Source: an uncultured Cryomorphaceae bacterium (GTDB taxonomy: Bacteria; Bacteroidota; Bacteroidia; Flavobacteriales; Schleiferiaceae). From it: a DNA stretch of 35,972 nucleotides. Below, piece by piece: positions 3-7,005 of the stretch (positions are counted from its first letter, which is position 1; every line of letters starts with the position of its first letter). The notes below the pieces were generated by a model, which did not search any database, was not told the origin of the DNA, and worked only from the letters and a program-made list of their open reading frames with translations. The stretch is taken from positions 1 to 35,972 of the forward strand of contig CAKZNE010000313.1 in the NCBI GenBank assembly GCA_937129395.1, given 5' to 3'. Made by a program: the position numbers and the translations under genes.

Positions 3-584
3 GGTAAAGAATTAAGTTTTTCAAAACCTACAGTTATTAATTTAACTAAAAAAATGGTAGAAAAAGGCTTTATAGAAAAACATCCAGTTACACGCCATTT
101 AAGAACTACAGCAAAGTGGCAAAAAGTGTACTTTACCAACGGTAAAGAAAGTTTACCAACGGTTAAAAAGGTAGTTGAAAGCGGTAAAGAAAGTTTACCT
201 GAAAGCGGTAAAGAAAGTTTACCTAATAATTATAATATATATAATAATATTAATAATTCTTTATTATCAGAAATAAAAATTTCTGATGTGCCATCTGAAT
301 TATTAGATTATTATAAAATTTCTTTAAAATTTCAGGAATTAATAATAAAAAATTTAGAAAAAAGAAATTCACCGGCTGGGATTCAAAAGAAAGCAAAATT
401 TAAAAAATGGGTTGATCCAATTAGATTAATGCTAACATCTGATGGTGTTTCTAAAGATAATTTAATAGTCAAAGGCTTTATTTTCAATCAGGGTCAGAAG
501 GCCTATAAACTTTATTCAGCTAGCTTTCAAATTCGGGCGGGAAACCCGAAACTTTATTCTTTATATACCCCAGTAGACCTTTAA
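3..584 (+). CDS. Phage/plasmid-type replication initiator, 5' end outside window
   Basis: The reading frame is open from base 3, so the gene starts upstream of the window; the ATG at 54 is internal. Seen: the first ~45 residues read like the recognition helix and wing of a winged helix-turn-helix (SKPTVINLTKKMVEKGFIEK). Then comes a Ser/Glu/Lys-rich linker with three copies of GKESLP, an Asn/Tyr-rich stretch encoded by nearly pure A/T, and a C-terminal part with FKKWVDPIRLMLTSDG and YSASFQIR. The last two motifs resemble the C-terminal domain of phage replication proteins (W-DPIRLM-DG then S-[PA]-x-x-[LI]-R). Inference: a lambda O-like initiator that binds the repeats in its own gene. No helicase or helicase loader follows; the stop overlaps the stop of the convergent arsC-like gene. 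The element is therefore truncated here or lies mainly to the left. The last ~15 residues look unlike the family and may be altered. The exact family is not certain. Confidence 0.6.
   Translation, partial: GKELSFSKPTVINLTKKMVEKGFIEKHPVTRHLRTTAKWQKVYFTNGKESLPTVKKVVESGKESLPESGKESLPNNYNIYNNINNSLLSEIKISDVPSELLDYYKISLKFQELIIKNLEKRNSPAGIQKKAKFKKWVDPIRLMLTSDGVSKDNLIVKGFIFNQGQKAYKLYSASFQIRAGNPKLYSLYTPVDL
141..224 (+). repeat. Three hairpin iterons inside the initiator gene
   Basis: The 17-base sequence GGTAAAGAAAGTTTACC occurs identically at 141-157, 183-199 and 208-224. Each copy is a 6-base inverted repeat (GGTAAA/TTTACC) around a 5-base loop. The last two copies lie in a perfect 24-base tandem repeat (177-200 and 201-224) that keeps the reading frame (8 codons). 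A further half-site pair, CTTTACC/GGTAAAG, sits at 131-147. This looks like binding sites for a replication initiator (inference). Confidence 0.75.
225..280. other. AT-only tract beside the iterons, candidate unwinding element
   Basis: Bases 225-258 are A and T only, and 225-280 contain just three G/C bases. The tract directly abuts the last iteron and is translated as an Asn/Tyr/Ile-rich linker. In lambda-type origins the iterons in the O gene are followed by an AT-rich unwinding region; the order here is the same. Function is inferred. Confidence 0.5.
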
Positions 585-952: not shown

Positions 953-3900
953 TTAACGGAACAGGTGGAAAAAACCAGTTCTTTCTTCTTTATTTCCACA
1001 TTGATCTGTATAGTTGAGCACATAATAATATACCCCTTGAGGAACGTCTTTATTTTCAAATTTCCCATCCCAGCCAATTACAGGGCTATTGTTGGAAAAT
1101 AATTCGGAACCCCATCTATTGAAAATTTTAATATCAAATTCTGAGAAAAAATCTGGGTCTTGAATATTGGTAAAATGCAAGAGATCATTTTGCAAATCTC
1201 CATTGGGTGAAAAAACATTGGGAACCTCGATTTCGGAATCAAAATCTAAAATTGTTATGGTTTCTCTGTGTGTAAATACTCGATTACATACGGTATCAAT
1301 GCTTTCCAATTTCACCTCGTAAGTGCCTGGTTCTAGAAAATCAAATTTCAAGCTTGCAGAATCCGCAATCACCCGATTATCTACAGACCAAATATGCTCT
1401 TGGAAACCGCCACCTTCGGAATTAAAATAGGCGCTTGTACCATCAAGACAAGCATCGTAATTCACGCTAAAATCTCCTCTTAATGTTGAAGACCTTACTG
1501 TAACCACCTGAGAACTACTATCGGAACTTCCACAAGAACCACCACCCACAATCATTTGAACTGTATAGGTTCCTTCCTGATCAAACAAATGGACTGGGTT
1601 TTCATCAATTGAAAAATTTCCATCTCCAAAATCCCAGTAATAGGAACTCGCATCTATTGATTCGTTTTTAAAATCTACAGAAAGACCACCATCGCAGGTA
1701 TCATAATCTGTACTAAAATCCGCATCTAAGGGATCGATATACCCATAAAATTCGATTCGAATGGAATCTAAAAATCCACAGGTAGTATCCCTTCCTACAA
1801 TATTCAAATATTGAACTCCCACCTGATCAATAACAATTTGGGAAGGTGCTAATTGTAAAATACTACCATCGGGAAGTGTCGTTTCATAGATATCTGCATT
1901 ATAACTTTTATTGGTAATATTTACCGTATAAGGCACACAACTGCTATCGCGGTCTGGTTCAAAATCTACACTTACATCCAATTCCATTCTAAGCTTTAAT
2001 ACAGCCATATTGCAATTTGAGGATTCATTGGACCTTGAATACGCGCTATCACTAACCGGAAATTTATTTGTCCCGCCACAGCTTGCACATACCGCTTGAT
2101 AAATAGTTCCATCTTTTTGAAAACGACTGGTTCCGCCATCTACATGGTCCCCAGAACCATTTCTTTCTCCAAAATAAGCTCCAAAATTTACTTTTTCCCA
2201 ACTGGCATCCAAAACCATAAAGTAAAAATCCTGACCATCACTGATGGAACGAGCCCCATCTACTTCATCGATATTATTGGTAATGGGTAAACCATTTGAC
2301 AAGCCTTGCGGAGAGCTACTTCCCCCATTCCTTCCATAACCTGACAGGTAAATGTTTTGGCAATTATCAACCATAAAGGCTGTTGGTGACACTTCGGTTT
2401 TTGTACTATCCATATTTCCAAAAATCATGGATTTTATACTTTGGGATAGGTCCGGATTGAATTTATGGATGAATTGGTTTCCGTTGGGCTGAAAAAAAAC
2501 ATTATTCCCAAAAACAGGATAACTTCCCATAGAATGACCAAAAACATAAACATTAGTATCATCGTCCAGATCCAAAAGAAAATTCCTATCTCTATTTGAA
2601 GTTCCATTGTAGGTAAAGGCATTTATCTGACCATCGGAGGCCTTCATTCGAAGAACAAATCCATCTTGATTTCCTAAAAATTGATTTTCAAAACCTCCAG
2701 AAAAAGAAGTCCCCAAATCGCTACTCGCTGTAATTCCTGCAACATAAACTTGACCCTTGGAAGTTTTTAGGCTAAGGGCAGCGTCATGGTCTGATCCTGC
2801 AATATATGAGGCCCACCTAAGATTTTTTAATTCCGGATTAAAGGAGGCAACCAAACCATCTTGAATCCCAACACCCGAAGGACTTAGAGCTCCAGAACTT
2901 GGTATATCCTTGGAATCTGTGCTTGCAGTGAAATAAATATTTCCTGCACTATCCAAAGCAATTTCCGAACGGTTTTCATCTGCATAATTAAATCTAAATG
3001 CAGAATTTACCCCATCATTCCCGCTTCCACCAAAAAAAGTACTAGCCAAAAGCTGACCACCAGTACTGTCTAATTTGGCAATAAAAACATCCGAACCATT
3101 GGGGTAATTAATAATGGAGCTTCCTGGAAAACTAACTGCTGTTCCAGAATTGAAGGTACTGTCATAAGTTAAAACTGAGGTAGGGAAATTGGCAGAACCT
3201 GTGGTGCCAAGAATTAATAATTCCTTGTTGTTGGTTTCAATTAAACTTAGCGGGACTTCGTTTCCATTGCCGCCTAAATAAGTACTAAAAATCATTTCTG
3301 AACCATCGGCGGTGTATTTGGTAATGGTTACATCATAGGTTCCGCCTCGAAAAGTATCTTGGTAAGCTCCTAGCGTTACAGGATATTTTTGATTGGGATT
3401 TGAATTGTAAGCAATGCCACCGCCGTAGGCTTCTCCATCAACTCCATAAGTTGCGGTAAAACCAAAATTATCTGTTTTGGATCCGCTATAAGTACTGAAA
3501 ATTAAAACTGGATCAATCACCAATTCGTAATCTTCGTTATAAGAACCCAGTTTATAGCTCAGGATATTTTCTTTTAAAACATATTTACATTTAACCATAA
3601 TTTTTTCACCATCAATTATTTGATAAGCAATTGGCGCAGATTCCAAAACATCTTCTACAGAATTTTTCACAAGCAAATTCCCATAAACCAGCTTTAGCCG
3701 ATCTGTTCCTTCATATTCTAATTGAATTTGATCCGGATTAGCCCCAGCTTTTAATATCAGATCGTACTTTAAATTTTGGTCCTTGTTGAAATAATATTGG
3801 ATGTCTATTCCCGGATAAATATTGGAAAAGGAAATTTTGCCGAAAAGACCTACATCACTTTTCCATTTAGATCTGTCCTTACCAAGGATATAATTTTCGC

Positions 3901-4237
3901 GAATTTTTCTACGAAGGCTGCTTTTTGATCTAGCCTTTTTCGAAGCGCCCAAAAAATTAACAGAATAAGCATGACCGCGATAGGGGCTACCAATTGGAAT
4001 TAAACCGGGATGGTCCTCTTTAATTTTATTTTTTGAGGGGTTTGGCTTTAAATCATAGACTCCAAAATTGTAAACCACTTTATTTTCAGAAATAAAAACG
4101 GCCCCATTTCCCAATGGAAGTTTGTATTTAAAATCACCCTCCCATTGCCCTTGATTTTCCACAAAGGACGCCTCCTGAGCCCATGATGGTAGGCTCACTA
4201 AAAGACAAAATAAAAATATGGAATGTAGCTTGCTCAA
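953..4237 (-). CDS. Secreted T9SS type B surface protein with PKD domains
   Basis: A 1094-aa secreted protein. The first ~20 residues are a signal peptide (SKLHSIFLFCLLVSLPSWAQ). The segment starting FVENQGQW (~25-250) matches the N-terminal domain common in large Bacteroidota surface proteins with SBBP-type repeats. The middle (~250-800) holds repeated STYxGG blocks (FSTYSGS, FSTYLGGNGNE, STFFGGSGND), the beta-propeller-like SBBP pattern. Two PKD-like domains follow (~840-915, with WDFGDG; ~918-995). The last ~90 residues (PNVFSPNGDLQND ... NRWGSELF ... GVYYYVLNY) are a CHU_C/gliding-motility C-terminal domain, the type B signal for T9SS export. The start is TTG at 4237: an in-frame TAG lies four codons upstream and the signal peptide follows at once. 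The ligand or role in adhesion is unknown. Confidence 0.85.
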   Translation of the reverse strand: MSKLHSIFLFCLLVSLPSWAQEASFVENQGQWEGDFKYKLPLGNGAVFISENKVVYNFGVYDLKPNPSKNKIKEDHPGLIPIGSPYRGHAYSVNFLGASKKARSKSSLRRKIRENYILGKDRSKWKSDVGLFGKISFSNIYPGIDIQYYFNKDQNLKYDLILKAGANPDQIQLEYEGTDRLKLVYGNLLVKNSVEDVLESAPIAYQIIDGEKIMVKCKYVLKENILSYKLGSYNEDYELVIDPVLIFSTYSGSKTDNFGFTATYGVDGEAYGGGIAYNSNPNQKYPVTLGAYQDTFRGGTYDVTITKYTADGSEMIFSTYLGGNGNEVPLSLIETNNKELLILGTTGSANFPTSVLTYDSTFNSGTAVSFPGSSIINYPNGSDVFIAKLDSTGGQLLASTFFGGSGNDGVNSAFRFNYADENRSEIALDSAGNIYFTASTDSKDIPSSGALSPSGVGIQDGLVASFNPELKNLRWASYIAGSDHDAALSLKTSKGQVYVAGITASSDLGTSFSGGFENQFLGNQDGFVLRMKASDGQINAFTYNGTSNRDRNFLLDLDDDTNVYVFGHSMGSYPVFGNNVFFQPNGNQFIHKFNPDLSQSIKSMIFGNMDSTKTEVSPTAFMVDNCQNIYLSGYGRNGGSSSPQGLSNGLPITNNIDEVDGARSISDGQDFYFMVLDASWEKVNFGAYFGERNGSGDHVDGGTSRFQKDGTIYQAVCASCGGTNKFPVSDSAYSRSNESSNCNMAVLKLRMELDVSVDFEPDRDSSCVPYTVNITNKSYNADIYETTLPDGSILQLAPSQIVIDQVGVQYLNIVGRDTTCGFLDSIRIEFYGYIDPLDADFSTDYDTCDGGLSVDFKNESIDASSYYWDFGDGNFSIDENPVHLFDQEGTYTVQMIVGGGSCGSSDSSSQVVTVRSSTLRGDFSVNYDACLDGTSAYFNSEGGGFQEHIWSVDNRVIADSASLKFDFLEPGTYEVKLESIDTVCNRVFTHRETITILDFDSEIEVPNVFSPNGDLQNDLLHFTNIQDPDFFSEFDIKIFNRWGSELFSNNSPVIGWDGKFENKDVPQGVYYYVLNYTDQCGNKEERTGFFHLFR

Positions 4238-4343
4238 AACAATCTATAAATATAGACATTGCCCAGCTTTTATTAGAAAAACATTTTCAATTGCAGAGTT
4301 CCAATTAGTTTAAGCGCATTGCCCTTATTTAGGAAATCAAATT

Positions 4344-5441
4344 TTAGGCTTCAGAACTTTGTCCGGTTTGCATTAAATAGGCTTTGATAAAATCATCAAT
4401 TTCCCCATCCAATACATTATCTACATTACTCGTTTCATTTCCTGTTCGCACATCTTTCACCAATTTATAAGGGTGTAAAACGTAGTTTCTTATTTGAGAT
4501 CCCCATTCGATTTTTTTCTTCCCTGCCTCAATTTCTGCACGCTTTTCATTTTTGGCCTCTATTTCAATTTCATACAATTGAGATTTCAATAATTGTATAG
4601 CCTTATCCTTATTTTGAAGTTGGGATCTGGACTCAGTATTTTCTATGATAATTCCCGTGGGCTTGTGCTTTAATCGAACCCCTGTTTCCACTTTGTTTAC
4701 ATTTTGTCCACCAGCACCACCAGATCTAAAAGTATCCCAGTCTATATCCGATAAATTCACTTCCACTTCAATGGTATCATCCACTAAAGGAAAAACATAA
4801 ACCGAAGCAAAAGAAGTATGTCTCTTAGCATTGGAATCAAAGGGGGAAATTCGCACCAGCCTATGCACTCCATTTTCTCCTTTTAAATAACCAAAAGCAT
4901 AATCCCCATCAATTTCAAGAGTTACAGTTTTCACACCAGCAACATCCCCTTGTTGGTAATTTAGTTCTCTTACTTTAAAGGAATTTCTTTCGGCATATCT
5001 CAGGTACATTCGCATTAGCATACTTGCCCAATCACAACTTTCAGTTCCTCCAGCTCCAGCGGTAATTTGCAAAACTGCGCTTAGTTTGTCTTCTTCCCCA
5101 GACAGCATATTTTTAAATTCTAAATCATCCACCAAAGTATTTAATTTGGCATATTGCTGATCCAATTCTGCTTCTGTAAGCTCTCCTAATTCATAGAACT
5201 CAAGAGCCAGTTCTAGTTCTTCTTTTTGCTCAATTCCGGCATCATAAGCTTCCACCCAGTTCTTCAATTCACGGATTTTTCGCATTATCCCTTCGGCATG
5301 TTCATGATCATTCCAAAAATCTGGAACCGCCGTTTTTTCTTCCTCATTGGCGATTTTAATTTTCTTTTCCTCAATTCCTAAATAGGATTTTAAGGCTTCC
5401 AAGCTCTGGGCTAATTCTCGTATTTGATCACTTGATACCAT
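4344..5441 (-). CDS. prfB: Peptide chain release factor 2
   Basis: Class I release factor that reads UGA and UAA and triggers peptidyl-tRNA hydrolysis on the ribosome. Seen: the GGQ motif at residues 244-246 in [15 protein letters not shown], and the RF2 tripeptide SPF in [14 protein letters not shown]. The N-terminal helical domain and the C-terminal [14 protein letters not shown] segment are also present. The length of 365 aa equals the family norm. I start at ATG 5441 ([10 protein letters not shown]); an extra in-frame TTG at 5450 would add three residues but is less likely. Most prfB genes carry an in-frame UGA near codon 26 that needs a +1 frameshift. Here the equivalent place reads SYLGIEEKK without a break, so this copy has no autoregulatory frameshift. 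Confidence 0.95.
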
Positions 5442-5571
5442 AGATGGCAAAAATAGTTTGAAAAAATTAGAAAAAAAGGATACTTCTACCCTTCCTTCAC
5501 CTTATAATTAACAATCAACTGGAAATAATAAAAGTCTATACAATTTCAGCTATTAATAGAGGCTCCTTTAG

Positions 5572-5579
5572 TACTTTTG
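5572..5579 (+). promoter_or_regulatory. Promoter -7 element for lpd
   Basis: TACTTTTG matches the Bacteroidota -7 consensus TAnnTTTG exactly, 25 bases before the lpd ATG. I see no clear -33 TTG at the right distance. Confidence 0.5.
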
Positions 5580-5604
5580 CCCTGTTATTTGAAAAAAAAT
5601 CCAG

Positions 5605-7005
5605 ATGAATAAATATAATGTTGTTGTTATCGGTTCCGGCCCAGGCGGATATGTTGCAGCTATACGAAGTGCACAATTAGGCTTAAAAACTGCAATTATT
5701 GAAAAATATTCCACCCTCGGAGGCACTTGCCTTAATGTAGGTTGCATTCCTTCCAAAGCACTACTGGATTCATCTGAGCATTACCACAATGCACTTAAAA
5801 AATTCGATAAACACGGTATTAATATCGAAACGCCAAAAGTGGATTTCACCCAAATGGTTGGACGCAAGCGCGAGGTTGTAGACCAAACCTGTGAAGGTGT
5901 GAAATTTCTTATGGGGAAAAATAATATTGATGTTTTTCATGGGATGGGGTCTTTTGAAACTGACCATATCATCGCCATTAATGGTGAAGAAGGAGAACAG
6001 AAAATTGAAGCGGAAAATGTAATTATTGCCACAGGAAGCAAACCAACAGAATTGCCTTTTGCAAAATTTGATAAGGAAAGAATTATAAGCAGCACCGAAG
6101 CCTTGGAACTAAAAGAAATTCCGAAAAAGCTTATTGTAATTGGCGGTGGAGTTATTGGCTTGGAGCTGGGGAGTGTTTATGCAAGACTCGGAACTGAGGT
6201 TAATGTTGTTGAATATTTAGATAGAGTTATTCCGTCATTCGATGCTGCCATTGGTAAAGAATTGGTAAAATCCATGAAAAAACTTGGGGTTAAATTTAAC
6301 CTCAGTCATAAAGTAAACAATGTTTCCAGAAATGGAGATACGGTTAGCGTTACAGCAACAGATAAAAAAGATAAAGAAGTAGTTTTTGAAGGTGATTACT
6401 GTTTAGTTTCCGTGGGAAGAAAAGCCTACACTCATGGTTTAGGTTTGGAAAACGCCGGATTAAAAGCAAATGATCGTGGTCAAATTGATGTAAATGATAA
6501 GTTGCAAACTGCCAAAGCTCATATTTACGCCATTGGTGATGTAGTAAGAGGAGCCATGTTAGCTCATAAAGCGGAGGACGAAGGAACAGTCGTTGCAGAA
6601 TTAATTGCCGGACAAAAACCTCATATTGATTATAACCTAATACCAAATGTTGTTTACACTTGGCCAGAAGTGGCGTCTGTAGGAAAAACGGAGGATCAAT
6701 TAAAAGAGGCCAAAATTGAATATAAAACCGGCCAATTTTTTATGCGAGCCTTAGGTAGAGCTAGAGCTAGTACAGACACAGAAGGATTTGTAAAAGTAAT
6801 GGCCGATAAAAACACCGATGAAATTGTAGGAGTTCAAATGATTGCTGCAAGAGCTGCAGATATGATTGCCGAGGCGGTTGTAGCTATGGAATTTAGAGCC
6901 TCCGCCGAAGATATTTCAAGAATTAGCCACGCCCATCCAACTTTTACAGAGGCGATAAGAGAGGCTGCAATGGCTGCAACGGACGATCGTTCGATCCATT
7001 CTTAA
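5605..7005 (+). CDS. lpd: Dihydrolipoyl dehydrogenase (E3)
   Basis: FAD flavoprotein that reoxidises dihydrolipoamide with NAD+. It is the shared E3 of pyruvate and 2-oxoglutarate dehydrogenases and the L protein of the glycine cleavage system, whose P protein gene is also in this window (24596). Seen: N-terminal FAD fold with GSGPGGY, the redox disulfide in GGTCLNVGCIPSKALL (Cys42, Cys47), the NAD fold with GGGVIGLELGSVYARLG, and the FAD motif near IYAIGDV. The C-terminal dimer interface carries the catalytic pair His444/Glu449 in HAHPTFTE. Length of 466 aa is normal. It is followed by a strong hairpin terminator, so it is probably monocistronic. The flavobacterial lpd is usually distant from the E1/E2 genes, as here. 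Confidence 0.95.
   Translation: MNKYNVVVIGSGPGGYVAAIRSAQLGLKTAIIEKYSTLGGTCLNVGCIPSKALLDSSEHYHNALKKFDKHGINIETPKVDFTQMVGRKREVVDQTCEGVKFLMGKNNIDVFHGMGSFETDHIIAINGEEGEQKIEAENVIIATGSKPTELPFAKFDKERIISSTEALELKEIPKKLIVIGGGVIGLELGSVYARLGTEVNVVEYLDRVIPSFDAAIGKELVKSMKKLGVKFNLSHKVNNVSRNGDTVSVTATDKKDKEVVFEGDYCLVSVGRKAYTHGLGLENAGLKANDRGQIDVNDKLQTAKAHIYAIGDVVRGAMLAHKAEDEGTVVAELIAGQKPHIDYNLIPNVVYTWPEVASVGKTEDQLKEAKIEYKTGQFFMRALGRARASTDTEGFVKVMADKNTDEIVGVQMIAARAADMIAEAVVAMEFRASAEDISRISHAHPTFTEAIREAAMAATDDRSIHS

Follow-up and report, generated by a model that had tools for sequence, protein, structure and literature searches.

A probable phage initiator gene fragment of the lambda O type with candidate origin iterons in an uncultured Cryomorphaceae bacterium, and a proposed iteron recognition code

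We analysed positions 1 to 35,972 of contig CAKZNE010000313.1 (assembly GCA_937129395.1, an uncultured Cryomorphaceae bacterium), hereafter called the window. An initial annotation had placed a candidate lambda-type replication origin at its left end, inside a gene with a winged-helix N-terminus and a phage-replication-like C-terminus. Our comparisons indicate that this segment is very probably the origin-bearing piece of a phage replication initiator gene of the lambda O type, of which a fragment survives. They also make it likely that winged-helix phage initiators in many bacterial phyla share self-encoded origins, made of GGT-NNN-N5-NNN-ACC dyads, together with a simple recognition code.

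The gene is an open frame of 193 amino acids at 3-584 on the plus strand. Three identical 17-base hairpin repeats, GGTAAA-GAAAG-TTTACC, were located within it at 141-157, 183-199 and 207-223 (iterons 1 to 3; no strand is assigned to these or to the two features that follow). Each is an exact match to GGTAAAGAAAGTTTACC and a perfect 6-5-6 dyad of the form GGTAAA-N5-TTTACC, and the last two belong to a perfect 24-nt tandem (176-199 and 200-223); the three identical repeats and the tandem had been described before. The three intact copies share one reading frame and encode GKESLP. A decayed iteron, GGTTAAAAAGGTAGTTG, lies at 161-177 in another frame, where it encodes VKKV, 20 bp past iteron 1 and 22 bp ahead of iteron 2; intact frame-2 copies occupy the corresponding place in L007 and L015. 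With the decayed copy included, the iteron spacing is 20/22/24. Across the whole window, GGTAAA was the only arm for which more than one perfect 6-5-6 dyad was found. When synonymous codons were permuted with the protein kept, three identical 17-mers arose in 0.02% of permutations (p = 0.0002) and at least three GGTAAA dyads in 1%.

Directly abutting the last iteron is a tract of A and T only (224-258), the proposed DNA-unwinding element. It had been reported as 34 bases; its immediate position and pure A/T content stood, and its length is 35 nt. No longer A/T-only run occurs in the window, where the runner-up measures 20 nt, and a run of at least 35 nt was infrequent under codon shuffling of the gene (p = 0.0065). 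The tract is translated as the Asn/Tyr/Ile linker NNYNIYNNINNS, and the linker of the window protein is built from the repeats and the A/T tract (GKESLP...NNYNIYNNINNS).

Upstream of the repeats, positions 3-137 (plus strand) encode the surviving part of a winged-helix DNA-binding domain, identified by a sub-threshold MarR match, by alignment, and by the family match and predicted structure of the nearest homologue. Because the contig begins at base 1, the gene, open in frame from base 3 onwards, lacks its 5' part. The fragment retains the recognition helix and wing, and the first helices of the domain lie beyond the contig edge. The recognition helix, SKPTVINLTKK, is encoded at about nt 21-53 (plus strand); Pro9 (nt 27-29) and Asn13 (nt 39-41) are its key residues. 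Downstream of the A/T tract, comparison with homologues identified the first half of an O-like C-terminal domain at 261-480 (plus strand), ending near KKWVDPIRLMLTSDGVSKDNL. It lacks the conserved FW..NILS.SKLR part: only the first half of the domain aligned, after which the sequence diverges from its O-like homologues, and the last ~100 nt of the open frame match no homologue.

The nearest viral homologue, L002 from IMG/VR, is full-length and 45-50% identical to the window protein over window positions 9-488. It bore out both domain assignments. Its N-terminus matched Pfam HTH_36 above the cut-off (27.3 bits, cut-off 25), and AlphaFold predicted a confident winged helix there, for which Foldseek returned MarR-like winged helices with no strong E-values. 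In PHROG, L002 matched family 391 ('replication initiation O-like') with E 1.8e-16, and its C-terminus aligned to the lambda O C-terminus over 65 residues (E 2e-8). The same C-terminal domain is common to Polaribacter phages Freya and Danklef and to Flavobacterium elemo phages. At the position of the window repeats, L002 carries GGTGCA-type GGTGCAAAATTTGCAC dyads spaced 42/20/22/24, which encode GAKFAH in a linker (residues 96-154) predicted to be disordered (pLDDT about 27).

Dyad arrays of this type proved widespread. The exact 17-mer was present in 59 viral contigs, mostly in-frame within winged-helix proteins of 200-290 amino acids, and, as L002 and L126 pointed to GGTGCA dyads, that class was also sought. 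Tandem dyads were found in 65 viral contigs for GGTAAA and in at least 120 for GGTGCA, compared with 0 matches in the same collection for a reversed-arm tandem control; a chance origin of the tandem dyads was rejected on these counts. Clustering on the winged helix (50% identity) left a non-redundant set of 61 arrays (26 GGTAAA and 35 GGTGCA), in which iteron spacings peaked at 20-24, 31-34 and 42-45 bp. The 50 nt past the array were richer in A+T than the whole gene in both classes (71% vs 57% for GGTAAA; 52% vs 42% for GGTGCA). The array type occupies the same gene position in unrelated phages of several bacterial phyla, and hundreds of phages have related genes built to this plan.

Within this set, more than one reading frame was used in 31 of the 61 arrays (12/26 GGTAAA and 19/35 GGTGCA), which argues that selection conserves the DNA rather than the peptide. 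GGTAAA copies stood in frame 0 (n = 56), where they are read as GKxxLP, or in frame 2 (n = 18), where they are read as VKx[VLF]Y, and both frames often occurred in one gene. Frame 1 was never used, because a TAA would stop translation of GGTAAA-N5-TTTACC there. GGTGCA dyads were found in all three frames, and L152 has all three within a single gene. One-mismatch copies were synonymous in 10 of 56 cases, or about 18%, where 23-29% would be expected if the peptide were free of selection; they thus showed no synonymous excess. The expectation that hairpins would recur at the same place while the encoded linker varied was borne out by GAKFAH in L002 and by GKESLP or VKKVY, depending on the gene, from the GGTAAA repeats elsewhere.

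Origins inside lambdoid O genes are textbook knowledge. OriLambda consists of tandem inverted-repeat iterons of 17-19 bp in gene O, followed by an AT-rich region of about 38-40 bp (PMC5043065, PMC3349717). In our comparison, the lambda iterons were TCCCTC-N5-GAGGGA, again 6-5-6, spaced 20/24/23 and set in frames 0, 2, 2 and 1. The window shares this plan, as had been proposed: the dyad geometry is identical, the spacing is 20-24 bp in both once the decayed copy is counted, the iterons occupy multiple frames between the DNA-binding and C-terminal domains, and AT-rich DNA follows directly; the lambda O C-terminal domain is shared with L002. In contrast, the iteron arms are GGTAAA here and TCCCTC in lambda, and the N-terminal domain, as seen in L002, matches HTH_36 rather than Phage_rep_O. 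The window also differs in its Bacteroidota host, its three intact iterons and one decayed, its lack of a P gene and its broken initiator gene.

We then compared iteron class with the recognition helix, where position 74 of the winged-helix profile is the third residue of the S-K-P-T-V motif and position 78 lies four residues on; AlphaFold placed both at the start of the recognition helix of L002. Arg occupied position 74 in 36/37 GGTGCA, 16/16 GGTGAC and 0/26 GGTAAA proteins (p = 5e-20, with sequences treated as independent), the GGTAAA proteins having Pro or Gln instead. At position 78, Arg was present in 16/16 GGTGAC, 0/37 GGTGCA and 2/26 GGTAAA proteins (p = 7e-15, on the same treatment); the role of this position was noticed in the GGTGAC data and was not predicted beforehand. 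The GGTGAC scan itself was prompted by phages mEp013 and D290, which have Arg at both positions with GGTGAC-like iterons. It returned tandem arrays in 35 contigs, 26 of them with a recognisable winged helix, all Arg-Arg and 16 of them non-redundant. The closest pair across classes, L176 and L296, is 80% identical and has SKRSVMNHI with GGTGCA and SKRSVMRHI with GGTGAC, respectively. The window helix, SKPTVINLT, agrees with its own GGTAAA iterons. We consider it probable that Arg at the third motif residue corresponds to G at base 4 of the arm (Pro or Gln to A), and Arg four residues on to C at base 6.

The lambda-type interpretation of the segment is well supported, because cross-frame dyad arrays, the dyads and O-like C-terminus of L002, helical phasing, the AT-rich flank and the covariation of helix and iteron all point the same way. 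On the model of lambda (PMC5043065, PMC3349717), the initiator would use its N-terminal winged helix, probably as one dimer per dyad, to bind the 17-bp GGTAAA-N5-TTTACC iterons in its own gene. With iterons spaced about two helical turns apart, initiator dimers would fill a phased array, and several bound copies may then open the adjoining A/T tract. The C-terminal domain would bring a DnaB-type helicase to the opened tract, either directly or via a loader. Binding, dimerisation, strand opening and helicase loading are all inferred in this scheme, and the covariation lends the scheme indirect support.

Several observations weigh against these conclusions. The contig edge removes the 5' end of the gene, the C-terminal half stops abnormally near 480, and no phage gene follows. 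Although full-length L002 matched HTH_36 and PHROG 391 in the profile search that had been suggested, the window fragment alone matched families weakly: its PHROG matches were to O-like and DnaD-like families (PHROG 678, E 0.002), and MarR fell below the cut-off. Pfam PF04492 (Phage_rep_O) was matched by neither L002 nor the window fragment, whereas lambda O matched it with E 5.7e-36. For the code, the p-values of the covariation depend on treating sequences as independent. Phylogeny lends limited support: on a 77-column tree the two positions had 12 and 15 independent contrasts, with just 2 each on well-supported branches, all pointing the predicted way. Two GGTGCA proteins, L155 (SNNTV) and L254 (Flavobacterium phage FCV-1, SKNTV), have Asn in place of the Arg found in all the other proteins of this class and are exceptions to the code.

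Among other explanations, the repeats might be autoregulatory operators and the winged-helix protein a transcription regulator with no part in replication. The fold is MarR-like, Polaribacter relatives carry the annotation 'transcriptional regulator', and dyads bound by winged helices are typical operators. Nevertheless, we regard this explanation as improbable, given phased arrays of 2-7 copies deep within the coding region, generally followed by AT-rich DNA, and the match of the L002 C-terminus to that of lambda O. The gene neighbourhood of relatives also argues against it: a DnaB helicase gene adjoins the initiator in L054, L005, L015, L088, L102 and L126, directly after it in several relatives, and P-like loader genes stand next to the initiator in others. 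Autoregulation may accompany origin function.

A copy broken at both ends with one iteron decayed would also fit a tandem duplication that arose recently in a decaying prophage and has no function, and the present copy may indeed be dead. Chance duplication is nonetheless contradicted by unrelated phages of several phyla, which carry this array type in the corresponding place and in covariation with the recognition helix, and we judge this explanation very unlikely. The single frame of the three window copies might suggest that the DNA repeats simply follow from a repeated linker peptide (GKESLP) with a role at the protein level. This explanation was rejected as scarcely credible given the mixed frames in half of the arrays, the reading of the same 17-mer as VKKVY in other genes, the absence of a synonymous excess, and the different peptide, in a linker predicted to be disordered, in L002.

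The initial annotation had left open a phage or a plasmid origin. The relatives found are phages, and no homologue of the protein was present among 72,556 plasmid records; a plasmid origin was rejected on this basis. Iteron plasmids of the P1, F and RK2 type do resemble the window in having initiator-binding repeats in helical phase beside an AT-rich region (PMC5043065), but their iterons are direct repeats read by a plasmid Rep protein, whereas those of the window are dyads. Similar in plan are the GGTGCA and GGTGAC initiators of phages such as Escherichia phage mEp013, Vibrio phage D290 and FCV-1. Gene plan, dyad geometry and spacing are alike, and, FCV-1 excepted, the recognition-helix residues agree with the iteron class; they differ from the window in their arm bases, their recognition residues and their intact gene.

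These three were among 16 named phages chosen by winged-helix sequence alone and read by eye, with no control scoring. Nearly all had repeated sites right after the winged helix: of GGTGAC type in mEp013 and D290, of GGTGCA type in FCV-1, and as five GGTTGG-N5-CCAACC-type repeats in Bacteroides phage BKO1-3. The GGTTGG class was found in just 2 contigs. Pseudomonas phage MD8, Aeromonas phage 56 and Sphingopyxis phage VSN-002 (L260, L259 and L263) have asymmetric iterons that combine GGTGCA-like and CCCGCA-like half-sites, with Arg at the reading position.

Repeats were also seen outside initiator genes. Matches of the tandem pattern in genome contigs without a winged helix (e.g. L099-L101, L103, L111, L113 and L114) are probably due to chance. 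In OMXI01000001.1 (L118, uncultured Clostridiales), four GGTAAA-GTGTA-TTTACC dyads lie on the minus strand from about 4031, with no long open frame; they may form an extragenic array that acts as an origin or operator. Single exact copies of GGTAAAGAAAGTTTACC occur at 233-249 in L009, 2802-2818 in L029 and 1563-1579 in L056, in very AT-rich DNA with no long open frame and outside an initiator gene, in related viral contigs. In a Verrucomicrobia contig (L109), imperfect GGTAAA-type dyads form a long series over 5585-6182, within a frame that has no winged helix, and seem to represent another repeat family.

The window lies at the start of one of the 346 contigs of its assembly. Its own copy is a gene fragment that is broken at both ends and probably contains no working origin. 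Homology to phage genes ends at about 480-488, and across the junction (480-584, no strand) A+T content falls from 74% to 60%. An arsC-like gene of the host chromosome follows on the opposite, minus strand (581-919), and no helicase-loader (P) or DnaB gene adjoins the fragment in the window. The arsC-like orthologue in a sister species has different flanks, with an S9 peptidase on its far side; here that neighbour is on another contig, the other end of which looks chimeric. That contig (L272, G000:C162), judged by eye, joins foreign-looking rpsC-rplP-rpmC (1-1723) to Bacteroidota-type genes (1748-6000), and the S9 peptidase that it carries is divided between two overlapping frames (3955-4506 and 4452-5849). 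The assembly thus seems to contain chimeric or erroneous joins, and because L272 mixes foreign-looking with Bacteroidota-type genes, the window copy could be either a prophage remnant or an assembly chimera. A search of the assembly for the missing 5' part returned the window copy as the sole match. No copy of the gene was found by protein search in 59 relatives, and profile matches in two other genomes (L250-L252) were without such an array and apparently unrelated. Further along, window positions 953-4237 encode a DUF7948/PKD protein whose CHU_C type IX secretion domain marks the host as a Bacteroidota bacterium.

No earlier account of the GGTAAA, GGTGCA and GGTGAC iteron classes or of a helix code, and no mention of the repeat peptides or dyad arms, was found in the open-access literature, to which the search was confined. 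The classes and the code therefore appear to be a variant of the known intragenic-origin plan that is unreported in the open-access literature.

To our knowledge, most phages have no known origin, and the specificity of origins is usually determined phage by phage. Should the iteron classes and the helix code prove correct, the initiator gene would reveal the origin, where it lies and which specificity group it belongs to, for phages infecting Bacteroidota, Firmicutes, Proteobacteria and others. The odd repeated peptides GKESLP and VKKVY in annotated phage proteins would be explained as read-through of DNA sites. As every gene would hold both reader and site, sequenced phages would together amount to a natural collection of protein-DNA pairs that match each other. 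Origins and compatibility groups could be predicted from this collection, including which prophages or satellites share or interfere with each other's replication, and these predictions would be testable.
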